DNA from: a virus
Strand: one strand, 5' to 3'
DNA: 31,688 nt
Virus record (IMG/VR): IMGVR_UViG_3300009425_000055
Span: 1-31,688 of that record
Part shown: positions 1 through 31,688 of the stretch, one piece after another
How positions within the stretch are numbered: position 1 is the first letter of the stretch
Layout of the letters: each line of letters opens with the position of its first letter
Program-made: the position numbers and the translations under genes
The notes under the pieces: model-generated
What the model was told of the DNA's origin: nothing
The model's database searches: none
Seen by the model: only the letters and a program-made list of their open reading frames with translations

Positions 1-1
1 C

Positions 2-244
2 AGTACAGATGTACTTGTAGGTTACAAAGGAGCAAGTGAGGCAGACGCACCAGCGTTTTATTGTCCTTACATTCCTTTAATGTCTTCAGGTGTTGTACTA
101 GATCCAGCTACTTTCGAACCAGTAGTAGGCTTCTTAACAAGATACGGTTATGTAGAGTTAACAAACACTGCATCATCTCTTGGTAACGCGGCAGATTACG
201 TTGGAAAAGTTGCGATCACAAGTGCAAACTTAAAATTCAAATAA
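2..244 (+). CDS. gp23: Major capsid protein gp23, C-terminal 80 residues (5' end outside window)
   Basis: This is the last part of the T4-type major capsid protein, which forms the hexamers of the head shell. The open frame enters from the left edge with no start and ends in TAA. The residues GYKGASEADAPAFYCPYIPL and the later DPATFEPVVGFLTRYGY match the conserved C-terminal part of T4 gp23 (FYCPYV..., DP..F.P..GF.TRYG) as I remember it. Most of the protein lies upstream of the window, and gp20, gp21 and gp22 would be expected there. A strong terminator follows 27 bases after the stop, so the capsid transcript ends here. Confidence 0.92.
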   Translation, partial: STDVLVGYKGASEADAPAFYCPYIPLMSSGVVLDPATFEPVVGFLTRYGYVELTNTASSLGNAADYVGKVAITSANLKFK

Positions 245-268
245 GCCCAGCTTATTTTATTTTCAATC

Positions 269-296
269 AAGGGCGGCTTTATGTCGCCCTTTTTTG
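269..296 (+). terminator. Intrinsic terminator after gp23
   Basis: Stem GGGCGGC (271-277) pairs with GTCGCCC (283-289) through one G-U pair and is followed by a run of seven T. It is nearly identical to the terminator at 13240-13267. Confidence 0.85.
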
Positions 297-392
297 TGAC
301 TGAACTTTCTATTAACCACTCTTATTAAAAATTATTTTGGCGTTCATAGTGACCTTAGACCAAATGTGGTAGTTTTACTTGTGTTTTAGACT

Positions 393-400
393 TCTAAATA
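393..400 (+). promoter_or_regulatory. T4-type late promoter motif TCTAAATA
   Basis: This matches the late consensus TATAAATA except at the second base. It lies 45 nt upstream of the ATG at 446. T4 late transcripts start about 6 nt downstream of the motif, which would put the mRNA start near 406, at the first base of the hairpin at 406-423. Confidence 0.5.
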
Positions 401-405
401 ATTGC

Positions 406-423
406 AAGTTTCGAAAGAAACTT
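406..423 (+). promoter_or_regulatory. 5'-leader hairpin with GAAA tetraloop
   Basis: AAGTTTC (406-412), loop GAAA (413-416) and GAAACTT (417-423) form a perfect 7-bp stem closed by a GNRA-type loop. It sits between the late motif and the Shine-Dalgarno sequence of the 446 gene, roughly at the predicted 5' end of the mRNA. A role in mRNA stability is inference. Confidence 0.5.
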
Positions 424-445
424 TTAATCAAAGGGAGGTCCAACA

Positions 446-679
446 ATGGATATCGCAATGAAAATAAAAGGATGGGCAAAAGCTCTTGCTGACGTAGGTG
501 TTTCACTTATAGCGTTAGGAATCGTTTTAGAAATCCTTTTCAAAGGGCAGAACGTTCCGTTCTGGCCAAACGTTTCTGTAATAGGAAACATACAAGGCAT
601 ATTGCAAGGCTTTTCAGATCAAGGTCTGATAGGGTTGGTAGCAGTATGGATTTTATATCATATCTACAATAGAAAATAA
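446..679 (+). CDS. Small two-helix membrane protein of unknown function
   Basis: The 77-residue product has two hydrophobic segments, about residues 13-33 (ALADVGVSLIALGIVLEILF) and 60-74 (GLIGLVAVWILYHIY), joined by a loop of about 27 residues, so it should lie in the inner membrane. A strong Shine-Dalgarno sequence (AAAGGGAGG, 430-438) supports the ATG at 446. It sits directly after the capsid gene and has its own late-type promoter and a hairpin leader. The size and the two helices would fit a holin-like protein, but no lysis gene is nearby and I do not recognise the family. It should be treated as an unknown phage membrane protein. Confidence 0.75.
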   Translation: MDIAMKIKGWAKALADVGVSLIALGIVLEILFKGQNVPFWPNVSVIGNIQGILQGFSDQGLIGLVAVWILYHIYNRK

Positions 680-708
680 TATAGAACTTACATAACGTAA
701 CCTCGAAA

Positions 709-756
709 GAGTGGTGTGTCTGACTTTTTTTGGATTGTGGCACATCACTCTTTTTC
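709..756 (+). terminator. Intrinsic terminator after the small membrane protein
   Basis: GAGTGGTGTG (709-718) pairs with CACATCACTC (741-750) with one G-U pair. The loop is about 22 nt and a T-rich tail (751-755 and beyond) follows. Confidence 0.75.
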
Positions 757-787
757 TTTTTATACACATATAAAACAAAATATAAAA

Positions 788-795
788 TAATAAAT
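788..795 (+). promoter_or_regulatory. T4-type late promoter motif AATAAATA
   Basis: The motif lies just downstream of the terminator at 709-756 and 105 nt before the ATG at 901. It would give a leader of about 100 nt. Confidence 0.5.
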
Positions 796-814
796 ACACA
801 TAGTTCAACACGTG

Positions 815-892
815 CTTTTACATCTCGTAAAAGACTTATGCAGATAACAACTGCGTACCTAGGAGAACTAGGATTGGACTCCTTTAAAGGAG
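815..892 (+). promoter_or_regulatory. Structured 5' leader of the 901 gene
   Basis: Three inverted repeats lie in the leader: CTTTTAC/GTAAAAG (815-833, 5-nt loop), CCTAG/CTAGG (858-872, 5-nt loop) and the perfect 14-nt palindrome CTCCTTTAAAGGAG (879-892). The last contains most of the Shine-Dalgarno AAGGAGG (887-893), so the ribosome site could be partly masked. That effect is inference. Confidence 0.45.
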
Positions 893-900
893 GAAACAAA

Positions 901-1323: not shown

Positions 1324-1341
1324 TAGAACTATACGTGCTTT

Positions 1342-1369
1342 AAGGGGGAGTTTACACGCTTCCCCTTTT
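1342..1369 (+). terminator. Intrinsic terminator between the 901 and 1388 genes
   Basis: AAGGGGGAG (1342-1350) pairs with CTTCCCCTT (1359-1367) around an 8-nt loop and is followed by T residues. A late promoter motif begins three bases later. Confidence 0.8.
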
Positions 1370-1372
1370 CAA

Positions 1373-1380: not shown

Positions 1381-1387
1381 ATAGCAA

Positions 1388-2230
1388 ATGGCAAAGCATT
1401 TACGTACATCAGGTGATTATACAATTAAAACGGGCACAGGTGCAGGTGGCTCGAATTCAGTAATCTTTGATTCAAAAACAACAAGAGTAAAAGGTGATTT
1501 AATAGTTGATGGTTCCAACACAGTTATTGACACAGCATCATTAACAATCGAAGATCCGATTATAATTTTAAGCAGAAATAATTCAGCACCAAGTGATGTT
1601 GACTCAGGAATTTTAGTAAACAGAGGTGTGGCAAACAATGCGGCACTGTATTGGAATGAAGGTGATGACACATTCAAAGCAGTTACAACAACATCAGATG
1701 GTACAGGTACAGCGATAACAGACACAGCACTTGCAAAAATACAAGTGGCAGAGCCGGCGGCATCATCAGACGCGGCAACAAAAAACTATGTGGACTCGGT
1801 AGGTGGAGCAGTATTAACAGGTTCAACAAACAATCAAGTTACCACTGTGACAGGTGCGAATGCTATCACTGGTGAAGCAAATTTAACATTCGATGGAACA
1901 GTATTAGCAGTTACTGGAAATATTACAGCAACAACTTCAATAGCCAATGATGCTATCAAAATAGACGATCACACAATTACAACTACGAGATCCAATGATG
2001 ATCTTGTATTGAAAGCCAGCGGAACTGGTAACGTGGTTATTGACGATACACTTACATTTTCAGCGATGGCAACAGATCCGACAGCAACAGCACAAACAGT
2101 ATTATATAACAAAACTGCAGGCGGTGGAGGAACAGGATTGTACTTTAGAAATACTGCAATAGGTTCAGGAGCCGTTGGAGAACTGATAAGTAAAAAGAAG
2201 GCTACCGCATTAGCGATTGCACTAGGATAA
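1388..2230 (+). CDS. Fibre-like structural protein with shared GDL-V module
   Basis: The 280-residue protein is rich in Thr, Ser, Ala and Gly. Residues about 35-138 hold a module (GDLIVDG..., LTIEDPIIILSRNNS, ...VNRGVANNAALYWNE, ...EPAASSDAATKNYVD) that recurs in the proteins at 4124, 9784 and 11899. The later part contains 'GNITATTSIANDAIKIDDHT', a pattern usual for trimeric beta-structured fibres. It probably forms part of a tail fibre or whisker. The start lies 7 nt after a late promoter motif. The gene is followed after 3 nt by the next ATG, so the three genes 1388-3032 form one unit. No receptor-binding tip can be recognised. Confidence 0.75.
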   Translation: MAKHLRTSGDYTIKTGTGAGGSNSVIFDSKTTRVKGDLIVDGSNTVIDTASLTIEDPIIILSRNNSAPSDVDSGILVNRGVANNAALYWNEGDDTFKAVTTTSDGTGTAITDTALAKIQVAEPAASSDAATKNYVDSVGGAVLTGSTNNQVTTVTGANAITGEANLTFDGTVLAVTGNITATTSIANDAIKIDDHTITTTRSNDDLVLKASGTGNVVIDDTLTFSAMATDPTATAQTVLYNKTAGGGGTGLYFRNTAIGSGAVGELISKKKATALAIALG

Positions 2231-2233
2231 AAC

Positions 2234-2563
2234 ATGGCGATAACACAAAAAGTAATAGATTCAGACATACAAGCACAAGAATTTGTGTTCAAAGCGGCGG
2301 CTGACACTGCTGTAACATCAATACACTTATGCAACATCACAAGCAATGATGCAACAGTAAATATTTACTTGCTACCAAACGATGGTTCAACAGCAGGACC
2401 AACAGAGAACAACAAAATTTACAACACACTAACTATTCTAGGCACTGACACTTACGTTATTGACACAGAAAAAATGATCATGTCATCAGGAGACAAATTG
2501 TTTATTGAAACTCCTGACTCATCATCTTCAGTAGTAGCAACTGTATCAACTATAGGATTATAA
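2234..2563 (+). CDS. Small beta-rich structural protein
   Basis: The 109-residue product begins MAITQKVIDSDIQAQEFVF and continues with alternating hydrophobic and polar stretches (TSIHLCNITSNDATVNIYLL, TYVIDTEKMIMSSGDKLFI) typical of a small beta sandwich. It has no membrane segment. The gene starts 3 nt after the previous stop, has no clear Shine-Dalgarno sequence, and is probably translated by coupling. The position among fibre genes suggests a small virion protein, for example a fibre connector or decoration protein. The exact function is unknown. Confidence 0.7.
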   Translation: MAITQKVIDSDIQAQEFVFKAAADTAVTSIHLCNITSNDATVNIYLLPNDGSTAGPTENNKIYNTLTILGTDTYVIDTEKMIMSSGDKLFIETPDSSSSVVATVSTIGL

Positions 2564-2567
2564 TCCC

Positions 2568-15647: not shown

Positions 15648-17200
15648 TGGCTAGAACCAGAGGGTTCCAATGGAACAACAAAACAAAAAAATTATTCAGT
15701 AAAGGTCAAGAGGTTGTTGATAACTCGGCATCCAACTTGGTTAACACACTTAAGAACGTTGGTTCTGCAACAGGTACAGGAGTGGCACTTACTGCACAAG
15801 GTAATGACTCAAACATTGATTTAACACTAACGGCAAAAGGTACAGGTAACGTAACAGTTTCTAGTACTGGAGCCATTGTAGTACCCAAAGGTACAACGGC
15901 ACAAGCACCGACTGGTGCGGCAGGTATGTTGCGTTACAACACAACACTCGCCAGGTATGAAAGATATGATGTAAGTGCAGGAGCCTTCGTTGACATTGCC
16001 ACACAGGCGGCGGCCGCGGCAGAGTCCGATGACGTCTCAATCGGTGAAACACTGTCAGTAGGGACTAGCGTAAAAAATATTGATACATTTGGAACAAGTG
16101 TGTTTGATTCTGCATTTTATCTAGCAATAGCAAAAGATGAAATCAACGAAGAAATAGCGGCACAACAAGTTTCATTGGTGCACAACAATACTAGTGCATT
16201 TGTGTCAGCAGGTGGTGGAGTTAGAACAGGAAGTAATTCACACATATCATACACAGCAGACATTAACTCAGGCACAGTAAGATTAAGAGGAACTGGGTCA
16301 AGCACGGTGAACTCAGTTAAGTTTTACAAAATAGGATTAGGAGATGCCACATCAGAAAGTAGTTCAGGAAACACAGCAACATTAATCAACACAGATGTCG
16401 ACAGTGCTGTTGAAAACATAGACACATGGGCTCATGCAAGTTACAGAGGTGCAAAATATTATATCAGTGCAAACAACACTGGCAAAACAGAACTACAAAA
16501 CATTGAGTGTATGGTCGTCCACAACGGAACTGACGCCTTTATTACAACATACAACGACGTACACACTGGTAATGATCCTTTAATAAGTTTGACCGCAGAC
16601 ATCAGCGGAAGCACTGTAAGACTACGTGCAACAGGAAACGAGCCAAACACAGCAGTAAAAATGTACAGGGTTCTACTGTCAGATGCACAAAGTACGGCAA
16701 CAAGTACCAACACAAGGACAGTGGGTGCAACCACAGTATCAAGCAGTGCCACACAGATAGACACATTTACAACAGACGGTGCAACAGGTTGTCACTATGT
16801 TATCACTGGACACAATGCAGGTGCAAGTGATGATTCTATAGCAGAAGTTTTTGTAGTGTCAGATGGTACAGATGCTTACGTTGCCAGCACAGGAATTAGT
16901 TCTAAAGGTACAGATCAATTAACATTCACAGCATCATTATCAGGCACGACTGTGACATTGTCAGCGTCAAGCACCAGTGGAGGTTCTACAACTGTTAATG
17001 GTTACAGGGTACAGATGTTGAGAACGTCAGGTGGAGCGGCAACTGACTTGCAGGTGTTAACAAGCACAACACAAACTATATCAGGTGCGAAAACATTCTC
17101 GAATGCTGTTGTGATGATGACAAACTTGCCAACAAGTGACCCAAGCAACGCAGGACAACTGTGGAACGATAGTGGTACTTTGAAAATCAGTGCTGGCTAG
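15647..17200 (+). CDS. Tail fibre protein with three tandem ~100-residue repeats, distal partner
   Basis: The 517-residue protein begins MARTRGFQWNNKTKKLFSKG. An RFNT-like module follows (AQAPTGAAGMLRYNTTLARY, about residues 85-120), then three copies of the repeat also found in the 13365 protein, at about 130-231, 244-345 and 358-461 (entries VKNIDTF, VENIDTW, TQIDTF; cores SLVHNNTSAFV, MVVHNGTDAFI, FVVSDGTDAYV). The C-terminus, NLPTSDPSNAGQLWNDSGTL followed by KISAG, is a common short fibre ending. The TAATG junction with the 13365 gene suggests that they form one appendage. The stop overlaps the convergent Nudix gene by CTAG. Confidence 0.8.
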   Translation: MARTRGFQWNNKTKKLFSKGQEVVDNSASNLVNTLKNVGSATGTGVALTAQGNDSNIDLTLTAKGTGNVTVSSTGAIVVPKGTTAQAPTGAAGMLRYNTTLARYERYDVSAGAFVDIATQAAAAAESDDVSIGETLSVGTSVKNIDTFGTSVFDSAFYLAIAKDEINEEIAAQQVSLVHNNTSAFVSAGGGVRTGSNSHISYTADINSGTVRLRGTGSSTVNSVKFYKIGLGDATSESSSGNTATLINTDVDSAVENIDTWAHASYRGAKYYISANNTGKTELQNIECMVVHNGTDAFITTYNDVHTGNDPLISLTADISGSTVRLRATGNEPNTAVKMYRVLLSDAQSTATSTNTRTVGATTVSSSATQIDTFTTDGATGCHYVITGHNAGASDDSIAEVFVVSDGTDAYVASTGISSKGTDQLTFTASLSGTTVTLSASSTSGGSTTVNGYRVQMLRTSGGAATDLQVLTSTTQTISGAKTFSNAVVMMTNLPTSDPSNAGQLWNDSGTLKISAG

Positions 17201-17625
17201 ACAATCAAGTCTAGTATAGTTTGTAACTTACCTTTTATACTTTTATTATTCAGTGTATTTTTAAGACCCATGTGCAAATTCTTGGGCCAACATTCAAACG
17301 CACACCAACAGTATCCTGAATGTTCGTCATTTAGTTTAGGAATAAATTCCCCGTCGATGGCTATGAGATATGTGTGGAAGAAAAACTTCTGATCATTTGA
17401 TGTAAACATTTCTAGAGGAATTATTTTTTTAAACTTGGGCAAGCCACCCACTTCTTCTGTGATCTCTCTTTTCAATCCTTCAAATGCTGATTCTGTGTAC
17501 TTGGCCTGTCCACCGACCAATCCCCACATGCCCTGTGTTTTTTTATCAGTTCTTTGTAAGAATAAGAAACGTTTGGTGCTGGTCGAATAAAACAATGCAC
17601 CAGAACATACTATATTTTTTTCCAT
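17197..17625 (-). CDS. Nudix hydrolase
   Basis: The 142-residue protein carries a Nudix box, the catalytic motif of enzymes that hydrolyse nucleoside diphosphates linked to another group. Gly39, Glu45, Arg53, Glu54, Glu57, Glu58 and Gly60 fit GX5EX7REUXEEXG, and the metal-binding glutamates are all present. The upstream segment FLFLQRTDKKTQGMWGLVGG is the usual strand and substrate loop of the fold. The natural substrate cannot be read; candidates are modified NTPs, ADP-ribose derivatives or capped RNA. It lies downstream of gp15 on the minus strand but has its own sigma70-like promoter ending 5 nt before the ATG. The 3' end overlaps the fibre gene stop. Confidence 0.92.
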   Translation of the reverse strand: MEKNIVCSGALFYSTSTKRFLFLQRTDKKTQGMWGLVGGQAKYTESAFEGLKREITEEVGGLPKFKKIIPLEMFTSNDQKFFFHTYLIAIDGEFIPKLNDEHSGYCWCAFECWPKNLHMGLKNTLNNKSIKGKLQTILDLIV

Positions 17626-17630: not shown

Positions 17631-17660
17631 ATTATAACAATTATGGAGTAGTTGCGTCAA
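17631..17660 (-). promoter_or_regulatory. Sigma70-type promoter of the Nudix gene
   Basis: On the minus strand, TTGACG (17660-17655), an 18-nt spacer and TATAAT (17636-17631) are followed by AATAC and the ATG at 17625. The -35 element lies in the last codons of gp15. The mRNA start would fall at or within a base or two of the ATG, so no leader is expected. Confidence 0.65.
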
Positions 17661-19083
17661 GGCTTGAATTGTATCCTGGATCTGCTCCACCGTCTAGTAC
17701 TATGCTCCATTTACCAGCGGCATATATTCCTTCATAGGACTTCTTCCATTCGGTTCCGTCCCATCTATACTGTATACCTGTGTTCAAGTTAGTAACATAA
17801 TGTTGTGTTGAGTCTGGATCTGAAGCATCAAAGGCTATGTTCCATTTGCCTGTTGCACTGTTGTACTCTATAATATCGCCAACAGTTGCTACAAGTGTAC
17901 CCCAAGTTGCACTTTGCATGGATGCTGTTGAATCTCCCACATCATTTATAACCAAATATCTGTCACCGTTTGCTGGTGTGCCTGGACTAAATGTTGCAGG
18001 ATTAATAATTTTCTTAACTGCTGTCAGCGTGTTGCTTGGTATGGTATCCGAATCTGGATTGTATAATAATATTGTATCGTCTAGTGTGGTTGTTGCAATA
18101 GTTCCTATAATTTCGTTGCCATTTGGCTGTGTTAATCTAATTTCCGATGTGCCACTTACAACTTTTCCGTACTGTTCTAACAGTGTTTTCCAGTTAACTG
18201 CTGGTCCAAATGTTTCAAACGGATCAAAATTACTTGGCTCATTTGCTCCAGATTGAAATCCAGGACCACCTGACTTAACATTAACGCCTGTGCTACCTAA
18301 CAATCTTAACTGATTACCTGTTACTAACAATCCAAAATTGTTTGGTGTTATGAAACTTCTTGATGTTAATTCTCCATCTATTAAACCTTTTGCTATTCCG
18401 CCGTCGTCATCATATATGCTCATTATAATTTTTTGTACAACACCTAGCTTCTTAACCTTAACTGGAGGTGATAGCCAAATAGGCATTGAGAAAGTTAATG
18501 TTGCAACATCTATTTCTGAGTCTGCACCCACTGGTATCGTTCTACTACTAAAGGTGATGTTCTGTAATTCAACATAACTTAAACTGGTCCAGTCAATATA
18601 GTTGTCTGATTTTTGTATTTCAAAGTCTGGATTAAACAGATATAATATCTGTTCCATAATTTGTAGTTTTTGATCTGTGTTTGTTGTCCATATATCAGCT
18701 GACACTTCCAATCTAAAAGGAGATGGCATAACTTTTTCAACAGTATATCCAGCACCTAATCTATCACTGTAACTTCCGTCTGCTAATACATCACGTTCTT
18801 TTAAATGTTGTTTTTCAATATGATAAGGATTTTGCATTCTTTCTCTATCATAATTTAATTCTCTAACATATGCGGCAATTCTTGGGGCATACTGTAAAGC
18901 GTTCTCACTGTTGTTTCTAATAATACTTGCAACCTGTCTTGTGGGATCTCCGTATACAACAGGCACTGCTCTTAAATTTACTTCGCCATCTTTACCTCTG
19001 CCTGTCTCCACAGAAAAGTTACTCAAAATTCTAATGAATTGAGTTAAAAATTTTCTAACCTGTCCTTCGTAAAAGTGTAACAT
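17641..19083 (-). CDS. gp15: Proximal tail sheath stabilisation protein gp15
   Basis: The N-terminal 240 residues match T4 gp15, the tail terminator that caps the tube and sheath and binds the neck: FYEGQVRKFLTQFIRILSNF at the start, then NLRAVPVVYGDP, YAPRIAAYVRELNYDRERMQ, SPFRLEVSADIWTTNTDQKL, IMEQILYLFNPDFEIQ and a late MPIWLSPPVKV. T4 gp15 has 272 residues and this one has 480. The extra C-terminal part contains short 'P..GD.Y....W.....Y....W' segments (PANGDRYLVI, YNSATGKWNIAF, GIQYRWDGTEWKKSYEG) like those in gp14 and in the gp18 insertion. It lies 2 nt downstream of gp14 in the same minus-strand unit. Confidence 0.85.
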   Translation of the reverse strand: MLHFYEGQVRKFLTQFIRILSNFSVETGRGKDGEVNLRAVPVVYGDPTRQVASIIRNNSENALQYAPRIAAYVRELNYDRERMQNPYHIEKQHLKERDVLADGSYSDRLGAGYTVEKVMPSPFRLEVSADIWTTNTDQKLQIMEQILYLFNPDFEIQKSDNYIDWTSLSYVELQNITFSSRTIPVGADSEIDVATLTFSMPIWLSPPVKVKKLGVVQKIIMSIYDDDGGIAKGLIDGELTSRSFITPNNFGLLVTGNQLRLLGSTGVNVKSGGPGFQSGANEPSNFDPFETFGPAVNWKTLLEQYGKVVSGTSEIRLTQPNGNEIIGTIATTTLDDTILLYNPDSDTIPSNTLTAVKKIINPATFSPGTPANGDRYLVINDVGDSTASMQSATWGTLVATVGDIIEYNSATGKWNIAFDASDPDSTQHYVTNLNTGIQYRWDGTEWKKSYEGIYAAGKWSIVLDGGADPGYNSSLDATTP

Positions 19084-21304: not shown

Positions 21305-21940
21305 ATGTTAATAGGTGTAGTAGGTTTAATAAGTTCTGGTAAAGGCACAGTCGCAGATAGACTGGAGCAAAAACACAACTTCCGTAAAGATTCATTTGCA
21401 AAAAGTTTAAAAGATGCTGTAAGTTCCATGTTTAATTGGGACAGAGAAATGCTGGAAGGCAAAACTGAATCAAGCAGACACTGGAGAGAAACTCCTGATA
21501 AGTTTTGGAGTGAACGATTTGGCAAAGAAGTAACCCCTCGTTGGGTACTACAATACTTTGGCACAGAAGTCATGCGTCAAAACATGCATGACGCTATATG
21601 GATCGACAGTTGCTTGATGAGATACAACGGTAAGCCAACTGTGATTGCTGATACTAGATTTCAAAATGAACTTAAAATGATACGTAAATCCGGCGGAAAA
21701 TTAATATTAGTCAAAAGAGGTGAATTACCCACACGAGAAGAAATGCAACAAAAAGGTGCACATCAATCAGAATGGGATTGGATGGGTTGGGACTTTGATT
21801 TTACTATTGACAATGATGGTACAAAAGAAGAATTATATGCAAAAATTGACGACCTAGTCATCAGCAACAAGATCACCCAAACGCCAGCCGAGACGCTTGA
21901 CCCCTTGCAACCTTTGGCAATTGGCGCAAACAGTTTTTAA
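21305..21940 (+). CDS. Deoxynucleoside monophosphate kinase (T4 gp1-like)
   Basis: The 211-residue protein has a P-loop at residues 7-15 (GLISSGKGT) directly after a hydrophobic strand, as in kinases that phosphorylate nucleoside monophosphates. The following KDSFAKSLKDAVSSMF, then WVLQYFGTEVMRQNMHDAIW and PTVIADTRFQNELKMIRKSG, match the order in T4 gp1 (SGK, IKDA, ALGTD, DTRQ.HE). T4 gp1 makes dNDPs for phage DNA synthesis. It is the only clear DNA-metabolism gene among virion genes here and has its own sigma70-type promoter. The last 29 codons overlap the minus-strand HNH-like gene by 87 nt, and the terminal 20 or so residues have no counterpart that I recognise in T4 gp1. Confidence 0.85.
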   Translation: MLIGVVGLISSGKGTVADRLEQKHNFRKDSFAKSLKDAVSSMFNWDREMLEGKTESSRHWRETPDKFWSERFGKEVTPRWVLQYFGTEVMRQNMHDAIWIDSCLMRYNGKPTVIADTRFQNELKMIRKSGGKLILVKRGELPTREEMQQKGAHQSEWDWMGWDFDFTIDNDGTKEELYAKIDDLVISNKITQTPAETLDPLQPLAIGANSF

Positions 21941-22213
21941 ATTAGTAACAATAGTATTCCTCAAATTTCCGTCCACAAAGAACACATCTAATTGACTTTG
22001 ATTCTGTGCTTTGAACCCGCACAATTCACACTTGTTTTTCTTTTTATATCCTGAACGTTGCAGTGCTGTGATTCCGCCTACTTTCTTATTACGCTTCTTT
22101 CTATTACAGGTATCACACAGTCTACGCCAATAGATCTTGTCACCTTTCTTATAGGCATATGCTCTAGGTTTGGATCTACATTCTACACATAAGGGTCTAA
22201 CTGTATTGTTCAT
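21854..22213 (-). CDS. HNH-like zinc protein with altered active site
   Basis: The 119-residue protein starts at MNNTVRPLCVECRSKPRAYA. Four CxxC pairs (Cys9/12, 33/36, 62/65, 96/99) suggest two zinc sites. The C-terminal half has the outline of an HNH endonuclease (CELCGFKAQNQSQLDVFFVD, GNLRNTIVTNLKTVCANC), but the usual His-His before the VDGN is Phe78-Phe79, and the His after the last CxxC is Gln100. Nuclease activity is therefore doubtful, and it may be a DNA-binding remnant or a regulator. The frame is open to 22258, but ATG 22213 lies 7 nt after a late promoter motif. It overlaps the kinase gene by 87 nt on the opposite strand. Confidence 0.75.
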   Translation of the reverse strand: MNNTVRPLCVECRSKPRAYAYKKGDKIYWRRLCDTCNRKKRNKKVGGITALQRSGYKKKNKCELCGFKAQNQSQLDVFFVDGNLRNTIVTNLKTVCANCQRLQGVKRLGWRLGDLVADD

Positions 22214-22220
22214 ATACAAG

Positions 22221-22228
22221 TATTTACG
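22221..22228 (-). promoter_or_regulatory. T4-type late promoter motif CGTAAATA (minus)
   Basis: The motif ends 7 nt before the ATG at 22213 and is divergent from the perfect late promoter at 22285-22292. Confidence 0.6.
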
Positions 22229-22284
22229 TTGCCTATATAGGCACCACAGTTTTAGCAAATTACGTATCGAATTACCTAGTTTCT

Positions 22285-22333: not shown

Positions 22334-25300
22334 ATGGCATTAACAGCACCAGGAGTAGAAGTAAGTGTAATAAACGAGAGTTTTTATGTACCTTCAGATG
22401 CAGGTACTACACCACTTTTTATAGTAGCATCATCACAAGACAAGAAGAACGGAGCAGGCGATAGCACGGCATCAGGAACACAAACTACAAATGCCAATAC
22501 TGCTTATTTGATTTCTTCTCAAAGAGAATTAACAGAAACTTTTGGCGATCCAAAATTTTATCAAGACGCATCAGGCAATTCATTACAAGGTTATGAATTA
22601 AATGAATGGGGTCTACAAGCGGCATACTCTTTCTTAGGAGTTGCCAACAGAGCATACGTTTTAAGAGCAAATGTTGACACTAGTGAATTACTAGGAAGTG
22701 CATCGGCTCCAACTGCTAAACCAACAGATGGTACATACTGGTTTGACCTTGCATCAACTAGCTTTGGATTATTCGAGTGGTCAAAAACAGATCAAGCATT
22801 CACAACAATAACACCAACACTTATTACAACAGTTACTGATTTAGTTGGAGGAGTTTCAACTGGAGCACCTAAAACTTCAATTGGTATCACAGGTGATTAT
22901 GTAATTAATACAACACACGTTACTAACAAGATTTACAAAAAAACTGAATCAAATACTTGGGTACAAGTTGGATCAAGTGCATGGCACTTATCACTACCTG
23001 TAGTTTCAGTAGCGTCTGGAACAGCAGTAACAAACAGTCAGAACATGTCTATTAATGGCATAACAGTTGCGACAGGTGGAACTGCATTATCAAATGTTAA
23101 CTCGGCAATTAATGCGGCAAACATTCCAGGTGTAAGTTCAAGCATTAATGCTACAACAGGAAACTTAGACATCTTCCACGATGGTGGTGAGCTTGGCGAT
23201 TCTACAAACAGAGAAATACTTGACTTTGAAGAAGGTACAGGTTTATTAGCTGGTTTGGGAATTACAGCAGGAAACTTTAGAGCTCCTAAATTTTTACAAG
23301 ACAAACACACAAACAGACCTACTTGGAAAACTGCAGACGAAAACAGACCAACAGGTTCAATTTGGTTCAAAACAACTTCAGCAAACTCAGGAGCAAACAT
23401 TGTTACTAAACTGTACAGTTCAGCAAGTGCAAGTTTCTCAGCAGTAGCGGCTCCATTATATGCAACACACAACTCTGCGATCTACAACTTAGATGCAGGA
23501 AACGGTGGAACTGCATTAACAGTTGGAACTTTATACTCACAGTACAACATAACTGAACAAAAAATTGTTACAACAGACGGTTCACAAGTTGATACTACAA
23601 ATAACGTTGGTGATTTCCAACTGTTTAGATATGAGGGCGGAAAAACAGTTATTACTACTAGATTAACTGCACACTCATTTACAGGTTCAGAAACATTTAC
23701 AATAAGTGAAAGTAGAAAAAATCAAGCGGCAATGAGTACACCTATTACAATTACAATGAGTGGTACAACTGCTGACACATTTATAGCAGACATTAATGGT
23801 AAGGTTGACGCAAGTGCGGCGGCTAACTCCACTACAAAACTTATTAACATTAAAGCTTCTAAATTAGCAACTGGTGAAATTGTTATTGAACATGCACTAG
23901 GCGGTGACTTTAGAATGAACAACACAGGAACTGGCGACGTATTAGGTGATGCTGGTTTTGGAACTTCTCAAGCACATCCATATGGTGGATACACTGCGAA
24001 CAGTTCAACTTTAGTGGACAACTTATATGTTGCACCAGCAGGTGACACAGAAGATTCTTCAACAGGATCAGAAGTAGTTGCTTCTAACTGGAAAAGATTA
24101 TCATACACAGCAAGTACAAACGCACCAAACAATGAACCATCAGACGGTACATTATGGTATGACACAAACATTGATGTTGCAGACATTATGGCACACAATG
24201 GTACTACTTTTGTTGGATATGCAACAGCATACTCAAGCACAGATCCAAATGGTCCACAGTTTAGTGCAACAGCACCAACTACACAATCAGATGGTACTGC
24301 ACTTGTAACTAATGACTTATGGATTGACACTGCAGATTTAGAAAACTATCCAAAACTTTACAAATACAACACAGCGGCAACGTTGAGTTCAACTAACACA
24401 GCCAACCAAGTAGCAGTAACTACATCAGGTGCGGCTTGGGAATTAGTTGACAAAAGCGATCAAACAACAGAAGACGGTATTGTTTTTGCAGATGCAAGAT
24501 GGCACACGTCAACTGACAAAACAGCAGGAACTAGCACAGCGGCAGGAACACCTTCAACAATTAAAAACTTGTTGAGCAACGGTCATTTAGATCCAGATGC
24601 TCCAGATCCAGCGGCATTCCCACAGGGTATATTGCTTTGGAACACTAGACGTTCAGGCTACAATGTTAAAGAATACAAAAACAGTTACATTACAACTGCA
24701 AAATATCCAGGAAGTGGATCAAGCGGTTTAGGTAACGTTAGAGCAGGTAATGAATCTGTTGCAACTTACTATCCAGACAGATGGGTTACTAAATCAAGCA
24801 ACAATGCAAACGGTTCTGGTGCATTCGGAAGAAAAGCACAGAGAAAAGTAATTGTTGAACAGTTAAAATCAGAAATGGACACTAACCAAGCAATCAGAGA
24901 AGACCAAAGAGGATTCAACGTAATTGCTACACCTGGTTACCCAGAATTGATTGCAAACATGATCAACTTAAACACAGACAGAAACAACACAGCATTTGTA
25001 GTTGGAGATACTCCATTAAGATTAGCGGGTACATCAACTGCAATTACTAACTGGGCTAACAACTCATCAGCGGCACTAGACAACGGTGAAGACGGTTTAG
25101 TAAGTTCAAGTGATTATTTGGGTGTGTTTTATCCATCAGGTTTAACAACTGATAACACAGGAAAATCAATTGTTGTTCCAGCATCACACATGATGATGAG
25201 AACACTAGCAAACAACGATAACATAGCTTTCCCATGGTTTGCACCAGCAGGAACTAGAAGAGGTATTGTTGATAATGCAACAGCAGTTGGTTACATAGAT

Positions 25301-25774
25301 TCAAAAGAAGGTGAATTTAAAACAATATCTGTAACGGAGTCAGTGAGAGATTCAATGCATGAAGTTAAAATTAACCCAATTACATTCTTCTCAGGAGCAG
25401 GAATTGTTAACTTTGGTAACTTAACTAAAACACCATCAAGTTCAGCACTAGATAGAATTAACGTTTCTAGATTAGCAGTGTACTTGAGAACACAATTAGA
25501 TGCAATTGGAAAACCATTTATTTTTGAACCAAATGATGAACTAACAAGAAATGAAATCAAACAAGCAGTTGAATCATTCTTATTAGAACTTGTTGGTCAA
25601 AGAGCATTGTACGATTTCTTAGTAGTTTGTGATGACACAAACAACACACCTACGAGAATAGACAGAAATGAACTTTATGTAGACATAGCAATTGAGCCTA
25701 TTAAATCAGTTGAATTTATTTACATACCGTTGAGAATCAAAAACACAGGAGAAATTGCAAAATTAGGAAACTAA
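22334..25774 (+). CDS. gp18: Tail sheath protein gp18 with a large insertion
   Basis: This is the contractile tail sheath subunit. The N-terminus MALTAPGVEVSVINESFYVP and the C-terminal region (PWFAPAGTRRGIVDNATAVG, NPITFFSGAGIVNFGNLT, INVSRLAVYLRTQLDAIGKP, PFIFEPNDELTRNEIKQAVE) match the core of T4 gp18. T4 gp18 has 659 residues and this one has 1146. The extra length lies between about residues 120 and 770 and contains repeated 'P..G.(L/Y)W(F/Y)(D/K)....L(Y/F)....W' segments (TDGTYWFDLASTSFGLFEWS, RPTGSIWFKTT, PSDGTLWYDTN, TNDLWIDTA). The insertion probably faces outward, as in other variable sheath domains. AAGGAG and a perfect late promoter precede it. Confidence 0.92.
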   Translation: MALTAPGVEVSVINESFYVPSDAGTTPLFIVASSQDKKNGAGDSTASGTQTTNANTAYLISSQRELTETFGDPKFYQDASGNSLQGYELNEWGLQAAYSFLGVANRAYVLRANVDTSELLGSASAPTAKPTDGTYWFDLASTSFGLFEWSKTDQAFTTITPTLITTVTDLVGGVSTGAPKTSIGITGDYVINTTHVTNKIYKKTESNTWVQVGSSAWHLSLPVVSVASGTAVTNSQNMSINGITVATGGTALSNVNSAINAANIPGVSSSINATTGNLDIFHDGGELGDSTNREILDFEEGTGLLAGLGITAGNFRAPKFLQDKHTNRPTWKTADENRPTGSIWFKTTSANSGANIVTKLYSSASASFSAVAAPLYATHNSAIYNLDAGNGGTALTVGTLYSQYNITEQKIVTTDGSQVDTTNNVGDFQLFRYEGGKTVITTRLTAHSFTGSETFTISESRKNQAAMSTPITITMSGTTADTFIADINGKVDASAAANSTTKLINIKASKLATGEIVIEHALGGDFRMNNTGTGDVLGDAGFGTSQAHPYGGYTANSSTLVDNLYVAPAGDTEDSSTGSEVVASNWKRLSYTASTNAPNNEPSDGTLWYDTNIDVADIMAHNGTTFVGYATAYSSTDPNGPQFSATAPTTQSDGTALVTNDLWIDTADLENYPKLYKYNTAATLSSTNTANQVAVTTSGAAWELVDKSDQTTEDGIVFADARWHTSTDKTAGTSTAAGTPSTIKNLLSNGHLDPDAPDPAAFPQGILLWNTRRSGYNVKEYKNSYITTAKYPGSGSSGLGNVRAGNESVATYYPDRWVTKSSNNANGSGAFGRKAQRKVIVEQLKSEMDTNQAIREDQRGFNVIATPGYPELIANMINLNTDRNNTAFVVGDTPLRLAGTSTAITNWANNSSAALDNGEDGLVSSSDYLGVFYPSGLTTDNTGKSIVVPASHMMMRTLANNDNIAFPWFAPAGTRRGIVDNATAVGYIDSKEGEFKTISVTESVRDSMHEVKINPITFFSGAGIVNFGNLTKTPSSSALDRINVSRLAVYLRTQLDAIGKPFIFEPNDELTRNEIKQAVESFLLELVGQRALYDFLVVCDDTNNTPTRIDRNELYVDIAIEPIKSVEFIYIPLRIKNTGEIAKLGN

Positions 25775-25796: not shown

Positions 25797-26417
25797 ATGG
25801 CAATATCAACATTATCAAAATTTACAGTACCTTTAGCAAACGATCAGAGTTCAGCATCACAAGGTTTGTTGATGCCAAAACTTCAATATCGTTTCAGAGC
25901 AATACTTGAAGGTTCTGGAGTATCAACACCTAGATCAGAATTAACAAAACAAGTGGTAGACATTACTAGACCTAACTTGACTTTCGATAACGTAACACTA
26001 GACGTTTACAACTCAAAAGTTTACGTTGCTGGTAAACACACTTGGGAGCCAATTACAATCACATTAAGAGATGATGTAAACAACTCAGTTACTAAACTTG
26101 TTGGCGAACAAATTCAGAAACAATTTGATTTCTTTGAACAAAGTTCAGCGGCATCAGGTATTGATTACAAATTTACAACTAGAATTGAAATGTTAGACGG
26201 TGGTAACGGTTCAAGCACACCAAATGTATTAGAAACATTTGAACTATATGGTGCTTATGTTGAAAACGTTAACTACAACACACTAGCATACGCAACTTCA
26301 GATCCAGCTACAATCACAATGTCAATTAGATATGACAACTGTATACAAACACCACAAGGAACAGGTATTGGTACAGCAGTTGCAAGAACAATTGGTACTT
26401 TGAGTACTGGTGGTTAA
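25797..26417 (+). CDS. gp19: Tail tube protein gp19
   Basis: The 206-residue protein is the inner tail tube subunit. MPKLQYRFRAILEGSG, LTKQVVDITRPNLTFDNVTL, VYNSKVYVAGKHTWEPITIT and LRDDVNNSVTKLVGEQIQKQ follow the tube pattern of a 'Y.(F)R' strand, 'V...P.L.F...', 'NSK.Y.AGK..WEP..I..RDD'. T4 gp19 has 163 residues. It follows gp18 after 22 nt, with a strong AAAGGAG ribosome site 9 nt before the ATG. A terminator follows, which fits the high copy number needed for sheath and tube. Confidence 0.9.
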   Translation: MAISTLSKFTVPLANDQSSASQGLLMPKLQYRFRAILEGSGVSTPRSELTKQVVDITRPNLTFDNVTLDVYNSKVYVAGKHTWEPITITLRDDVNNSVTKLVGEQIQKQFDFFEQSSAASGIDYKFTTRIEMLDGGNGSSTPNVLETFELYGAYVENVNYNTLAYATSDPATITMSIRYDNCIQTPQGTGIGTAVARTIGTLSTGG

Positions 26418-27888: not shown

Positions 27889-28265
27889 TGACTGAATTTT
27901 ATACAAATCTACCACCTAAAGAAAGCGATGGTCTAAACGACACCATACAGAAGTTAACAACAACAAACTATCAATCAGATTTCGAGATGAATCCAGCTGA
28001 TTATGATGCCTGTATTGCATTTTTTGTTAGGAGAGGATTTAAAAGAGTATCTGCAGAATCTACTGCATACGTAATAATGTCACAGGCAAAAATAGACAGC
28101 ATAAGTCCACAAGAGATATTGGACAAACTAACTAGTGCTTCAGATGTACAATTATCAGAACTAATAACACTAATATTAAATGCTAACAGGTATAAGTCAA
28201 GTAGACTAGGTGTTAGACAGACACTAGCAACTAAAGAACTTGTATCTAGAAACATTCTAGATTAA
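27888..28265 (+). CDS. Conserved unknown protein between tube-like gene and gp4
   Basis: The 125-residue soluble protein begins MTEFYTNLPPKESDGLNDTI and is mainly helical (DYDACIAFFVRRGFKRVSAE, AYVIMSQAKIDSISPQEILD, LSELITLILNANRYKSSRLG). Similar small proteins occur beside virion genes in marine T4-like phages, so a virion assembly role is likely, but I cannot name a T4 counterpart. It is joined to both neighbours by TAATG junctions (27886-27890 and 28263-28267), so the three genes are translated as a coupled set. Confidence 0.7.
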   Translation: MTEFYTNLPPKESDGLNDTIQKLTTTNYQSDFEMNPADYDACIAFFVRRGFKRVSAESTAYVIMSQAKIDSISPQEILDKLTSASDVQLSELITLILNANRYKSSRLGVRQTLATKELVSRNILD

Positions 28266-28705
28266 TGCTACCAAGATTTGCAAGAGGAAAATTTTCACCA
28301 AAAAATGGCGACAAGTATGTTGGCTTAAAAACCCCGACATACAGATCAAGTTGGGAACACGCTTTCATGAGATTGTGTGACGAACATCCTAGCGTCTATC
28401 AATGGGCTAGTGAATCAATCAAGATTCCATACAGAAATCCTTTCTCAGGCAAGTACACTGTGTATGTGCCGGATTTTTTTATTGTGTATCAAGATAAGAA
28501 TGGAAAGAAACATGCAGAAATGGTAGAAGTTAAACCTGCTGATCAAACAACAATGGAACGTGCTGGAAAAAGTCTAGCAAAGAAAAAACAGGTTGTGTTA
28601 AACATGGCCAAATGGGAAGCCGCCAGTGCTTATGCCAAACAAAAAAAAATAAGATTCAGAGTAGTTTCAGAAGAAGACCTTTTTCACAACGGCAAACGTA
28701 AGTAA
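28265..28705 (+). CDS. gp4: Head completion protein gp4
   Basis: The 146-residue protein matches T4 gp4 (gp50/65), which joins the head after packaging: FSPKNGDKYVGLKTPTYRSS, WEHAFMRLCDEHPSVYQWAS, ESIKIPYRNPFSGKYTVYVP and DFFIVYQ. The residues Glu31, Asp70, Glu88 and Lys90 (SWE, PDF, EVK) form a PD-(D/E)XK nuclease-like set as in TnsA-type enzymes, so it may trim or bind DNA ends. It is coupled to the previous gene by TAATG. Its stop TAA is part of the late promoter motif of gp16. Confidence 0.88.
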   Translation: MLPRFARGKFSPKNGDKYVGLKTPTYRSSWEHAFMRLCDEHPSVYQWASESIKIPYRNPFSGKYTVYVPDFFIVYQDKNGKKHAEMVEVKPADQTTMERAGKSLAKKKQVVLNMAKWEAASAYAKQKKIRFRVVSEEDLFHNGKRK

Positions 28706-28708: not shown

Positions 28709-28713
28709 CGCAG

Positions 28714-29235: not shown

Positions 29236-29238
29236 ATA
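29231..29238 (+). promoter_or_regulatory. T4-type late promoter motif ACTAAATA
   Basis: The motif contains the gp16 stop codon (29233-29235) and ends 6 nt before the ATG at 29245. Confidence 0.55.
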
Positions 29239-29244
29239 TTGCAT

Positions 29245-29868
29245 ATGAGCACTTTTACACAGTATCTAGCAGAATCTAGCAAGTCATATGACTACAAAGT
29301 TAAGGTAGCAGGTGACATAAGCGATGACTTTGCATCTAGAATGGAAACGGCACTAGCAAAATTTGAAGTTGCTAAAATGTCAGCTGGTAAGAAGACACCT
29401 ATAATGACTATGCCTTTAGATTTTCCTGCATTAAGCAATGAGTCAGTTACTATTTTTGATGTTACAACAAACTATCCTGTAACAGCAAATGTAATGAAAG
29501 AATATCTATCAGACTACATGAACATAAATGCTTCAATGATCGTTGTTAGAAAGCCAGGTGAGCCAACAGAAGAATATCAAGCAAACATGCAGATAGGTCA
29601 AAAGTCAGAATATGCAAACAAATTACAAGATGTTGAAATGAAAGATGCACCTAAACATAAAGCAGAAGAATTTTTTGGTGACAAATACAACATGAGCTTA
29701 ATGAGAGAATTATTAAAATCTAAAAAAGATAAAGATCAAGTTCCAGCTATGCCGGATGAAGATTCAAAAAACAAAGCAGAGAAGAAATTACAAGACAAAG
29801 AAGAAAAAGGTACACCGAGTCCTCTTTCAAAAGCAACTAACAAACACCCGGACCCAAAGAGGAAGTAA
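29245..29868 (+). CDS. Possible internal head protein with capsid-targeting-like N-terminus
   Basis: The 207-residue protein begins MSTFTQYLAESSKSYDYKVK. This resembles the capsid-targeting leader of T4 internal proteins (MKTYQEFIAE), and Leu8-Ala9-Glu10 fits the (I/L)xE site cut by the T4 gp21 prohead protease. A mixed domain follows (DFASRMETALAKFEVAKMSA; SVTIFDVTTNYPVTANVMKE), with a hydrophilic Lys/Glu-rich C-terminus (residues about 165-207). The family is unknown to me and the internal-protein role is inference from the N-terminus. A TTG at 29239 would add two residues but lies too close to the promoter. The gene sits between gp16 and the acidic protein. Confidence 0.7.
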   Translation: MSTFTQYLAESSKSYDYKVKVAGDISDDFASRMETALAKFEVAKMSAGKKTPIMTMPLDFPALSNESVTIFDVTTNYPVTANVMKEYLSDYMNINASMIVVRKPGEPTEEYQANMQIGQKSEYANKLQDVEMKDAPKHKAEEFFGDKYNMSLMRELLKSKKDKDQVPAMPDEDSKNKAEKKLQDKEEKGTPSPLSKATNKHPDPKRK

Positions 29869-29871
29869 ATT

Positions 29872-31092
29872 ATGGAAATGATCGATGTACTATCAAAATT
29901 AAAAGAAATTGCAGAGTCTAAACCAGATTTAGTAGCAGACGCAGTTGCGAATGTTCAAGCAACTAATCCACAAGCTGTTGTACAGAATGCAGTTCAAAGT
30001 GAACCAGCATTAAAAACAGATGAGGGTGGAATGTCAGATGTACATATAGGAGCTCAAGAAGCTCTTGGAGAATTTCAAGATGAAGACGGTAACTTAAAAG
30101 GACCAAAAGCACAGGTAGTTGCGGCACTTACACAAAAAGCAAAAACAATGCCTTTCCCGGATAGTTACGAATATGAAATGGCATCACAAATGGCGATAGA
30201 TGATTTCGATGATGCAGGTCAAAGAAATCCAGACATGGACATGAATTCAGAACAACCCACAGACGAAGGCAATGCGTTTGCACAAGCAGTGCAACAAGCT
30301 AAATCTTCAGGCATGAAAAAAGGCGACAAATTTAAAGTTGGTGATGAAGAACACACATTAAGAGATAGCGATTTTGAAGGGGAGAGTACAAGAGATATGA
30401 AAACAGAAAAAACAGAAGGTAAAATTCCAGCAGGCTTAAAAGCATATCAAGATAAAAAAGCAGGCAAAGAAGAGAAAAAAGAAACTGTAAAAGAAGCAAT
30501 ACAAATATCAGCTGATTCTCCACAAGAAGCAAGTATGATGATGCAAATTTTAAAATTAGCAGGTGTTAAACCTGTTGATGATGCTATGATTGGTGCAGAG
30601 CCAGAACATGATCACGAACACACTCACGGAGATGACAACGAAGGTTGTGGACCATCTTGTGCAGAGCACGGTTGCGATTGTGAACACGGCAGAGCAGGTC
30701 AAGACGATGCAATGGGTTCACAGGAAATGGGCAGAATGAGAGACATGATGACTGCTCCTGAAGAAGAAAAACAAGAAGAAACTTTCGACAACGAACCAGA
30801 CGTAAAAGTACAAAATACAGACACATTGGTTAATACTATGTCAGGTGGTTTAAACAGACAAAAGAAAACTTTCCCAAAAGTTGCTAGTGGAGACAATCCA
30901 ATGGCGGCGGAAGACACTGTTACTGAAGATGATTTAGCAAACAGTCTTAGAGCACAATACGAAGGCTTCAAAGAAGCATATCAAAAAGAGGCAAAAATTG
31001 CAGAAGCAAAACCAGACTTTTTAGATATGGACAAAGATGGCGACAAAAAAGAACCAATGAAAAAAGCCATCAAAGACAAAGAAGCAAAGTAA
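29872..31092 (+). CDS. Long acidic protein with His/Cys cluster and DxDxDG motif
   Basis: The 406-residue, Glu/Asp/Lys-rich protein is probably largely disordered. Three segments stand out. The N-terminal region is helical (MIDVLSKLKEIAESKPDLVA). Near residues 243-275 a cluster of His and Cys (PEHDHEHTHGDDNEGCGPSC, AEHGCDCEHG) could bind zinc or other metals. Near the C-terminus PDFLDMDKDGDKKEPMKKAI has the DxDxDG outline of a calcium loop. It lies between gp16 and gp17, where packaging and head genes cluster, and may be an internal head or assembly protein. An AGAGGAAG ribosome site precedes the ATG. The function is unknown. Confidence 0.7.
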   Translation: MEMIDVLSKLKEIAESKPDLVADAVANVQATNPQAVVQNAVQSEPALKTDEGGMSDVHIGAQEALGEFQDEDGNLKGPKAQVVAALTQKAKTMPFPDSYEYEMASQMAIDDFDDAGQRNPDMDMNSEQPTDEGNAFAQAVQQAKSSGMKKGDKFKVGDEEHTLRDSDFEGESTRDMKTEKTEGKIPAGLKAYQDKKAGKEEKKETVKEAIQISADSPQEASMMMQILKLAGVKPVDDAMIGAEPEHDHEHTHGDDNEGCGPSCAEHGCDCEHGRAGQDDAMGSQEMGRMRDMMTAPEEEKQEETFDNEPDVKVQNTDTLVNTMSGGLNRQKKTFPKVASGDNPMAAEDTVTEDDLANSLRAQYEGFKEAYQKEAKIAEAKPDFLDMDKDGDKKEPMKKAIKDKEAK

Positions 31093-31116
31093 TACTTTTC
31101 CAAGCACCTAAACAGC

Positions 31117-31124
31117 GTTAAATA
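31117..31124 (+). promoter_or_regulatory. T4-type late promoter motif GTTAAATA for gp17
   Basis: The motif ends 7 nt before the gp17 ATG at 31132, with no Shine-Dalgarno sequence. Confidence 0.55.
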
Positions 31125-31131
31125 CTACACC

Positions 31132-31688
31132 ATGGCGTATGTATCACTAGATAGCGACCAAATTAAAAAGGCGCACAAGAAACACAAATATACCAAAACT
31201 CAAGTTGAACAACTTGAACAGTGTATGGATACAAAAACAGGACCTTTATTCTTTATGAGAACTTTCATGAGAATACAGCACCCAGTGAAAGGATCAATAC
31301 CTTTTGATCCTTTTCCATATCAAGAAAGATTAATCGAAAGTTATAATGACCATAGATTTTCAATTGCTATGCTACCTAGACAGACTGGTAAAACTACCTG
31401 TGCATCAGGTTTCCTTATTTGGTATGCCATGTTTAGACCAGATTCACAGATACTAATTGCGGCACACAAATACGCAGGTGCATCAGACATCATGTCAAGG
31501 GTGCGTTATGCCTATGAGATGTTGCCAGCATGGATCAAAGCAGGCGTAACACAGTACAACAGAAACAGTATAGAATTTGACAACGGCTCAAAGATATCAG
31601 CAACTACAACAACTGAAAACACAGGGCGGGGTATGTCACTTACACTTGTTTATTGTGATGAGTTTGCATTCGTGCAACCACCAGAGAA
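31132..31688 (+). CDS. gp17: Terminase large subunit gp17, N-terminal 185 residues (3' end outside window)
   Basis: This is the ATPase part of the DNA packaging motor. Residues 55-66 (SIPFDPFPYQER) hold the adenine-binding Q region, residues 82-89 (LPRQTGKT) are the classical terminase Walker A, and residues 172-177 (LVYCDE) are Walker B with the catalytic Glu. TTTTENTGRGMSL just before Walker B matches the conserved 'S.....RG.S' segment of gp17. The frame is open to the right edge, so the nuclease domain is missing only because the window ends. A late-type promoter 7 nt upstream and the absence of a ribosome site suggest leaderless expression. Confidence 0.95.
   Translation, partial: MAYVSLDSDQIKKAHKKHKYTKTQVEQLEQCMDTKTGPLFFMRTFMRIQHPVKGSIPFDPFPYQERLIESYNDHRFSIAMLPRQTGKTTCASGFLIWYAMFRPDSQILIAAHKYAGASDIMSRVRYAYEMLPAWIKAGVTQYNRNSIEFDNGSKISATTTTENTGRGMSLTLVYCDEFAFVQPPE

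Follow-up and report, generated by a model that had tools for sequence, protein, structure and literature searches.

The restriction endonucleases of the BisI family (BisI, NhoI, Eco15I, Esp638I and perhaps GlaI) act on GC-N-GC, GC-NN-GC or GCGC targets and cut according to the number of modified cytosines in them (PMC4926085, PMC11347163). BisI cuts GCNGC carrying two to four 5-methylcytosines, NhoI requires three or four, and the homologues of BisI need two to four, three to four or four, some of them with higher activity on GCWGC. Esp638I, a distant member, requires at least four to cut GCN/NGC, and GlaI (RmCGY) may be a neighbour of it (PMC4926085). On the marking side, M.BatI of a Bacillus prophage methylates the first C of GCDGC, so that both strands of GCWGC receive the mark, a single strand of GCSGC does, and the first C of GCCGC never does (PMC8936443). 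Phages are also known to counter-select short restriction sites genome-wide, with only weak avoidance seen for modification-dependent enzymes in one survey (PMC6286503). Here we describe a virus record, IMG/VR IMGVR_UViG_3300009425_000055, whose entire length of 31,688 bases (the window; 38.8% GC) is free of GCWGC, that is, of GCAGC and GCTGC. Its contents say that this record is a genome fragment. The avoidance resembles known restriction-site avoidance in that a short word is counter-selected genome-wide, but differs in being near-absolute and clade-wide, and in covering several words under one half-site rule.

An exact count of the window gave no GCAGC and no GCTGC, alongside 69 GCGGC and 10 GCCGC (79 GCSGC). 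A highest-order Markov null model predicted 43.2 GCWGC (z = -8.1), placing it lowest of all 1,024 5-mers, and 500 synonymous-codon shuffles of the window's open reading frames (ORFs), which keep the protein and the codon usage, gave a mean of 59.1 (sd 4.1, minimum 47); the ORFs were called by a simple longest-first rule. The original prediction, made from the letters of the window, that both words are missing and GCGGC is abundant is borne out by these counts and had, if anything, understated the case; its estimate of about 30 expected sites was too low. Its two examples of alanine runs spelled with GCG were also right (Table 1).

Probes from the terminase and tail tube genes retrieved 153 loci (the best 80 of each list), of which 148 were counted after removal of four overlapping loci and the window's own piece, and GCWGC was absent from 135 of these. 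Pooled with the window, the zero-site loci contain no site where 1457 would be expected, in 1,384,826 bases. Replication-region probes gave 142 new loci, 140 of them with no site (some lie on contigs already counted), and all 80 loci found with a family B DNA polymerase (pol-B) probe were empty, against an expectation of 551. Repeating the count on long relatives, as had been suggested with the original prediction, showed a single site in 2,042,234 bases among 38 avoiding records including the window; these records are not all independent, since some are almost the same (G053 and G061, for part of their length). Rare single sites in L003, L095, G015 and L441 could be sequencing or assembly slips. 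A large, mostly marine phage group has almost wholly purged GCWGC and its close kin. Searches of open-licence PubMed Central, a scope outside which most subscription papers fall, showed no account of such avoidance and none of phage genomes bearing a BisI-type footprint.

The grammar of the avoided words was determined in 36 avoiding records including the window (1.83 Mb of ORFs) against the codon-shuffle null, and ratios given below are of observed to expected counts. The avoided object is a pair of GC steps lying 0, 1 or 2 bases apart, neither of them within GGC or GCC. At spacing 1, GCWGC was found once against 2076 expected regardless of the outer bases, 35 of the 36 records being empty and the single site lying in G015. 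GCSGC was enriched approximately 2-fold (2415 vs 1110 expected), as would follow from the displacement of Ala-Ala and comparable pairs from GCWGC. At spacing 2, HGCDHGCD was reduced to 63 of 646 (0.10), rising to 0.40 with one GGC or GCC flank and to 1.25 with two, and GCCNGC (1.05) and GCNGGC (1.02) were spared. At spacing 0, HGCGCD was reduced to 35 of 752.5 (0.05), with ratios of 0.52 and 0.59 for one and both bad outer flanks, and pairs with both flanks good at spacings 3 to 6 gave 0.85-0.98. The strength of depletion at spacings 0 and 2 differs between records. Since W is the exact overlap of D and H, a single half-site rule serves spacings 1 and 2 and accounts for the loss of GCWGC with GCSGC kept. 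The signal had been predicted to be specific to W; this stands in so far as GCSGC is spared, but GCDHGC and HGCGCD are depleted as well, which had gone unnoticed. Star activity of a GCWGC enzyme was rejected, as its nearest neighbour, GCSGC, is enriched and not depleted.

Removal of these words by mutation bias, or by the choice of codons or amino acids, is barely conceivable. The mutability of 5-methylcytosine can deplete words, but the shuffle that holds proteins and codon usage constant leaves the deficit at spacing 1 in place, words one step away occur about as often as expected (GTAGC 1256 of 1324, GCAAC 3606 of 3549), and mutation by itself would not be expected to reach zero. Because the effect exceeds codon and amino acid choice, and is genome-wide and near-absolute, selection through DNA cutting is the right kind of explanation.

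Because the grammar of D, H and flanks resembles BisI-type behaviour, and an enzyme with a D rule exists in M.BatI, we propose, with a little less than even confidence, that marked GC steps and a BisI-like nuclease that counts marks explain the avoidance; we infer the modification and the nuclease, and which side, phage or host, encodes each. DNA of the clade would carry modified bases at GC steps that do not fall within GGC or GCC. On the top strand the marked base would be the C of GCD, or equivalently the opposite-strand G of HGC, and the bottom strand would be marked by the same rule. A nuclease met during infection, working like the BisI family, would cut where enough marks crowd together. 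In the window's clade, GCWGC (spacing 1) would be cut with just its two inner marks, and full avoidance at spacings 0 and 2 would take all four, as would spacing 1 in several side lineages; GCSGC, with at most one inner mark, would escape. A retained site would presumably be lethal, and phages would have purged such sites; a nested group that no longer avoids them could have been freed by the host's loss of the nuclease or by a host switch. The likeness to M.BatI lies in the D rule, but the motif of M.BatI includes the second GC, whereas the mark proposed here would follow single GC steps and be blocked also by GGC. The graded ratios at spacings 2 and 0 have the form of four-mark variants of a BisI-type footprint.

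The side lineages came from a scan for GCWGC-bearing pol-B genes and from a probe with the GIY-YIG endonuclease gene segE. Thirteen loci were taken, the five lowest in GCWGC of 79 pol-bearing loci and the eight lowest non-zero of 80 SegE loci; they were picked on low totals and not on the flank split, and some may be close relatives. At spacing 1 these loci showed the dependence on the number of modifiable GC cytosines that marks a BisI-type footprint, all four positions being usable with good flanks and three or two otherwise: GCWGC with good flanks, where neither strand has an outer G, occurred 3 times against 170.5 expected, compared with 72 of 95.0 for one outer G and 26 of 15.7 for two (together 98 of 110.7). 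The split was seen in group A (L904, L911 and L909; good flanks 0 of 73.3, one bad flank 0.58), group B (3 of 54.7, 0.93), group C (L874 and L877; 0 of 18.3, 0.36) and the pol-bearing set (0 of 23.0, 0.94). The L147 clade gave 0.31 with good flanks and 0.90 with one bad flank, and six fully non-avoiding loci had no flank effect (1.14, 1.15 and 0.89).

Avoidance was lost, or made unnecessary, at least once. Eleven records of nested close relatives (0.38 Mb, several overlapping or near-identical) contain 791 GCWGC, which is chance level, with codon-shuffle ratios of 1.13 for GCWGC, 0.83 for GCDHGC and 0.66 for HGCGCD. When the terminase of the non-avoider L128 was used as a probe, then among the best 80 of 592 matches all 25 listed loci at 91% identity or more had near-expected GCWGC, and at 86% identity and lower 51 of 53 new loci had none (L432 had 15 and L441 had 1); L125 and L135, matched again, had zero sites. 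In a tube-protein tree of 110 sequences, the non-avoiders L128, L134, L138 and L143 lie deep among avoiders, interleaved with the avoiders L139, L145 and L357, and the deep branch L368 avoids GCWGC. A single loss is therefore clean by the terminase and not by the tube tree. The L147 group is partially depleted in GCWGC.

A 43-nt piece of tRNA-Asp from the avoiding record G031 matched at least 120 genome contigs; among the 80 matches listed, 79 were SAR11 (Pelagibacteraceae, Pelagibacter or Pelagibacterales) and one was an unclassified alphaproteobacterium. On this one phage tRNA out of several, the hosts are probably SAR11 bacteria. SAR11 DNA does not show the depletion, whose presence in host chromosomes the original prediction had named as a sign against its reading: the 79 SAR11 stretches (605 kb) contain 612 GCWGC vs 649 expected (0.94; 1.01 per kb). 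Stretches of two cultured SAR11 phages, the pelagiphages HTVC008M (45 sites vs 38.1 expected in 40 of 147 kb) and HTVC010P (57 vs 65.5 in 34 of 34.9 kb), are not depleted either, and the SAR116 phage HMO-2011 has 98 sites vs 145. Other phages of the same host thus do not share the depletion, as judged from two phages and a host assignment from one tRNA.

BbvI, TseI and ApeKI are known GCWGC systems, and the original prediction had proposed a host system of this type; selection against a DNA cutter that reads GCWGC is retained here, but such a host system fits poorly. The undepleted pelagiphages and the normal GCWGC content of SAR11 DNA make an ordinary host GCWGC system unlikely, and we regard a classical restriction-modification (R-M) system of this specificity as improbable. 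Type II site avoidance is a known phage strategy (PMC6286503), a GCWGC methyltransferase, M.AbaBS3I, has been described (PMC6329791), and a C5-methyltransferase above cut-off was found in 7 of 49 SAR11 genomes, which are incomplete. This distribution is patchy, and a patchy system would hardly give zero in hundreds of loci. Nor would it give a reason for the words at spacings 0 and 2 or for avoidance confined to HGCWGCD; a classical type II enzyme should deplete only its recognition word, whereas HGCGCD and HGCDHGCD are depleted here and the side lineages avoid mainly HGCWGCD.

A candidate for the marking enzyme was found beside the polymerase gene. Record G053 encodes pol-B, a methyltransferase-like protein, a clamp (by eye), a 482-aa protein, FolE (PF01227, 6.7e-47), a QueE-like radical SAM protein (phrog_2076, 8.5e-53) and a queuosine-precursor transporter (TIGR00697, 1.5e-25), the last being present in 3 of 4 marine records compared. 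The 482-aa protein had no match among Pfam, PHROGs or NCBIfam models, and a profile search of PDB sequences gave no relative. Its AlphaFold2 model, built on an alignment of 32 relatives, had a pLDDT of 88.7 (a model made without alignment, pLDDT 31, was discarded), and all 50 listed PDB matches were to the TGT family (probability 1.00, best E 2.7e-9, TM 0.42 by query and 0.53 by target). D109, within DSGG(F/Y)Q, and D290 are invariant in all 32 sequences, and we take them to be the two catalytic aspartates, with roles as in TGT. On its predicted fold this protein is a relative of DpdA and TGT. It resembles known DpdA systems in being a phage TGT-fold protein with both aspartates near FolE and a QueE-like protein; it differs in being too divergent for Pfam, PHROGs or NCBIfam and in occurring with and without avoidance, and its modification and motif are putative.

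A DpdA-type transglycosylase that would exchange the G of HGC is a candidate marker. DpdA alone was rejected as a sufficient cause, since it occurs in non-avoiders too, and if marks are counted by a nuclease the difference would lie in the nuclease. Among pol-region genes, those for an AhpC-like (below cut-off), a SET-domain-like and a 388-aa glycosyltransferase-like protein are present in the four marine records G053, G060, G061 and G062 but not in the one non-avoider compared, G065; the last two calls were made by eye, and G053 and G061 are near-identical in this region. The DpdA-like gene, which adjoins pol-B and the clamp across this phage supergroup including PA5oct, directly follows those two genes in avoiders, and in the avoided geometry the two inner target Gs would lie on opposite strands with 1, 2 or 3 bp between their positions; both points suit the idea that base exchange leaves transient lesions at HGC on both strands and that pairs within 1-3 bp break the DNA with no nuclease needed. 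We consider this very improbable, as the same gene is present in the non-avoiding G065 and a homologue in phage PA5oct; such breaks are also not known from DpdA phages.

The search for a nuclease took in 115 of the 171 gene clusters shared between records and 103 of the 226 confined to one record (90-480 aa), with the first 25 of 67, 100 and 32 families listed, so that a nuclease may have been overlooked. Matches to HNH PF01844 were all below cut-off, in 6 of 20 records. The small HNH-like protein encoded opposite the sheath gene was rejected as the cutter: both avoiders and non-avoiders have it, and in the window's clade Phe takes the place of the motif's first His (VFFVDGN, compared with FHVDGN or YHVDGN in sister groups). 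A SegE gene was found in 4 of 39 records searched, these being the ones that reach the locus by gene order, and its loop differs between three avoiders and one non-avoider. SegE was nevertheless rejected as the determinant, since the avoiding loci L858-L860 carry the non-avoider-type loop.

The main rival, which we think somewhat unlikely, is a phage-encoded plain endonuclease that cuts unmodified GC(N0-2)GC and destroys host or rival DNA, the site-free phage genome being spared; lineages would differ in its specificity and the nested group would have lost it. Such an enzyme would suit an avoidance that is near-absolute across the 38 long records although their hosts must vary, as well as the density of targets in SAR11 DNA, the two undepleted pelagiphages, the few R-M genes reported in SAR11 and the presence of the SegE-type gene. 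Against it, no gene tracking the trait was found in the parts compared: the SegE loop contrast fails as described and SegE relatives occur in 525 annotated phage records, and the HNH-like and TnsA-like proteins are found in avoiders and non-avoiders. It would also need D and H rules at several spacings and a switch of flank rule in the side lineages.

Several observations weigh against marked GC steps read by a mark-counting nuclease. Esp638I prefers GCS/SGC (PMC4926085), whereas GCCNGC and GCNGGC are spared here; this lowered our confidence, the match being in spacing and mark number only. The known members of the BisI family read 5-methylcytosine or 5-hydroxymethylcytosine and not 7-deazaguanine. 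PF00145 C5-methyltransferases were found in none of 45 phage record fragments and PF01555 in none of 15, and no BisI-like nuclease was identified in phage or host in a search made without a family model. The non-avoiding G065 has DpdA, FolE and QueE, and PA5oct, which does not avoid GCWGC (61 vs 51.1), has a DpdA homologue of 40% identity annotated as hypothetical. Eight Pelagibacterales genomes are reported to lack R-M genes (PMC9516812). The flank rule is not uniform: group C is low with one bad flank too (3 of 8.3), and the near-zero exceptions, mostly L432, show no flank difference (0.18 with good flanks, 0.16 with one bad). The three spacings do not vary in step, the L147 clade having 0 of 21.8 at spacing 0, 0.31 at spacing 1 and 0.68 at spacing 2, and side group A having no depletion at spacing 0 (1.19). 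In small numbers, HTVC010P, which has no GCWGC depletion, has 0 of 6.1 at spacing 0 and 1 of 8.8 at spacing 2, and HTVC008M has 1 of 5.2 at spacing 2. Other words depleted in the 36 avoiding records by codon shuffle are left unexplained (AGCT 0.26, AAGCTT 31 of 452, ACGCGT 2 of 96, GGGCCC 6 of 69); these may reflect another cutter or mark, and the non-avoiding group is also low in AAGCTT (27 of 94) and AGCT (0.70).

It is possible, though doubtful, that the phages and their hosts hold an undescribed pair, a GC-step modification in a widespread group of SAR11-type phages and, in marine SAR11 cells, a nuclease that counts the marks. If so, the number of marks needed for cutting would differ by lineage and could be read from the flanks that are tolerated, and if the mark were 7-deazaguanine set by DpdA at HGC, the nuclease would count modified guanines, which to our knowledge would be the first of its kind. 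In most cases avoidance of a site leaves no more than a weak statistical signal; the present one is near-absolute, clade-wide, graded by flank and lost in one nested group, and it can therefore be read as a footprint assay for an enzyme that nobody has isolated. This would point to a modification-dependent DNA defence, or a phage weapon, in SAR11, which are among the most abundant bacteria, whose defence is poorly known and which are reported to have almost no restriction systems. The sequence rules for the proposed mark and cutter are exact and falsifiable.

The window record is, by its genes, a T4-like myophage related to PA5oct, a placement based on the sheath, tube, gp15-like stabiliser, deoxynucleotide monophosphate (dNMP) kinase, TnsA-like nuclease and terminase genes (Table 1). 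The sheath, tube, gp15 and terminase are related to the T4-like/PA5oct group and similar in order, and the gene order around the sheath resembles that of PA5oct. When the terminase and sheath were compared with 50,697 phage records, they came nearest to the PA5oct group and phages Phosso, Atu_ph07 and SCTP-2, all below 60% identity, and no near DNA match was found for window bases 1-25,000. The TnsA-like nuclease domain is presumably of the head-completion type.

Table 1. Positions of the features discussed (window coordinates unless a locus or record is named)
Feature	Position	Strand	Basis or remark
Whole window, GCAGC/GCTGC absent, GCSGC 79	1..31688	.	exact count and codon shuffle
Ala-Ala spelled GCG-GCA, not GCW-GCN	1757..1762	+	in frame with ORF 1388-2230
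Ala-Ala-Ala spelled GCG GCG GCT	2294..2302	+	sequence check
NUDIX hydrolase	17197..17625	-	PF00293, 3.3e-14
gp15-like tail sheath stabiliser	17641..19083	-	PF16724, 2e-27; marks T4-like phages
dNMP kinase	21305..21940	+	PF21448, 7.3e-13; PA5oct also has one beside the sheath gene
Small HNH/zinc-ribbon-like protein, opposite sheath	21854..22258	-	by eye; no Pfam match
Tail sheath	22334..25774	+	nearest annotated: SCTP-2, Atu_ph07, PA5oct group, all <60% identity
Tail tube protein	25797..26417	+	probe and tree sequence
TnsA-like nuclease domain	28265..28705	+	PF08722, 9e-22; in avoiding and non-avoiding relatives
Terminase large subunit, 5' part	31132..31686	+	probe
DpdA-like 482-aa protein	L452:12396-13844, record G053	+	AlphaFold2 fold match; 32 relatives aligned
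SegE-type GIY-YIG endonuclease	G053:97442-97912; also G062, G063, G045	- (G053)	PF19835

Further words were counted in the window and the clade. GANTC, which has been reported low in some pelagiphages, was not markedly low in a crude comparison (5262 vs 5875 GTNAC). In the window, GGTACC occurred 0 times of 17.4 expected and TAATTA 2 of 30.5 (both-strand counts, with palindromes counted twice), and in the pooled clade GGTACC was close to its expected count (196 of 238.5) and TAATTA was mildly reduced (370 of 535).

Several genes of the relatives were noted in passing. Those at L181:5761-7452, L173:11080-11670 and L819:2823-3350 (the third by eye) look like pieces of a split alpha subunit of DNA polymerase III, or of some other polymerase; the phages concerned encode a family B polymerase as well. 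A tRNA-Arg with anticodon GCG, unusual for bacteria, lies at L342:5413-5489 (G019) and L348:14366-14442 (G021). In L156, L162, L178, L180, L182 and L185, host-like genes lie between the terminase and a helicase, including those for asparagine synthase, an epimerase, FkbM methyltransferases, a radical SAM protein, a glycosyltransferase and a weak 2OG-oxygenase match. The scanned phage proteins also include AOX, SufBD, SufE and UvdE.

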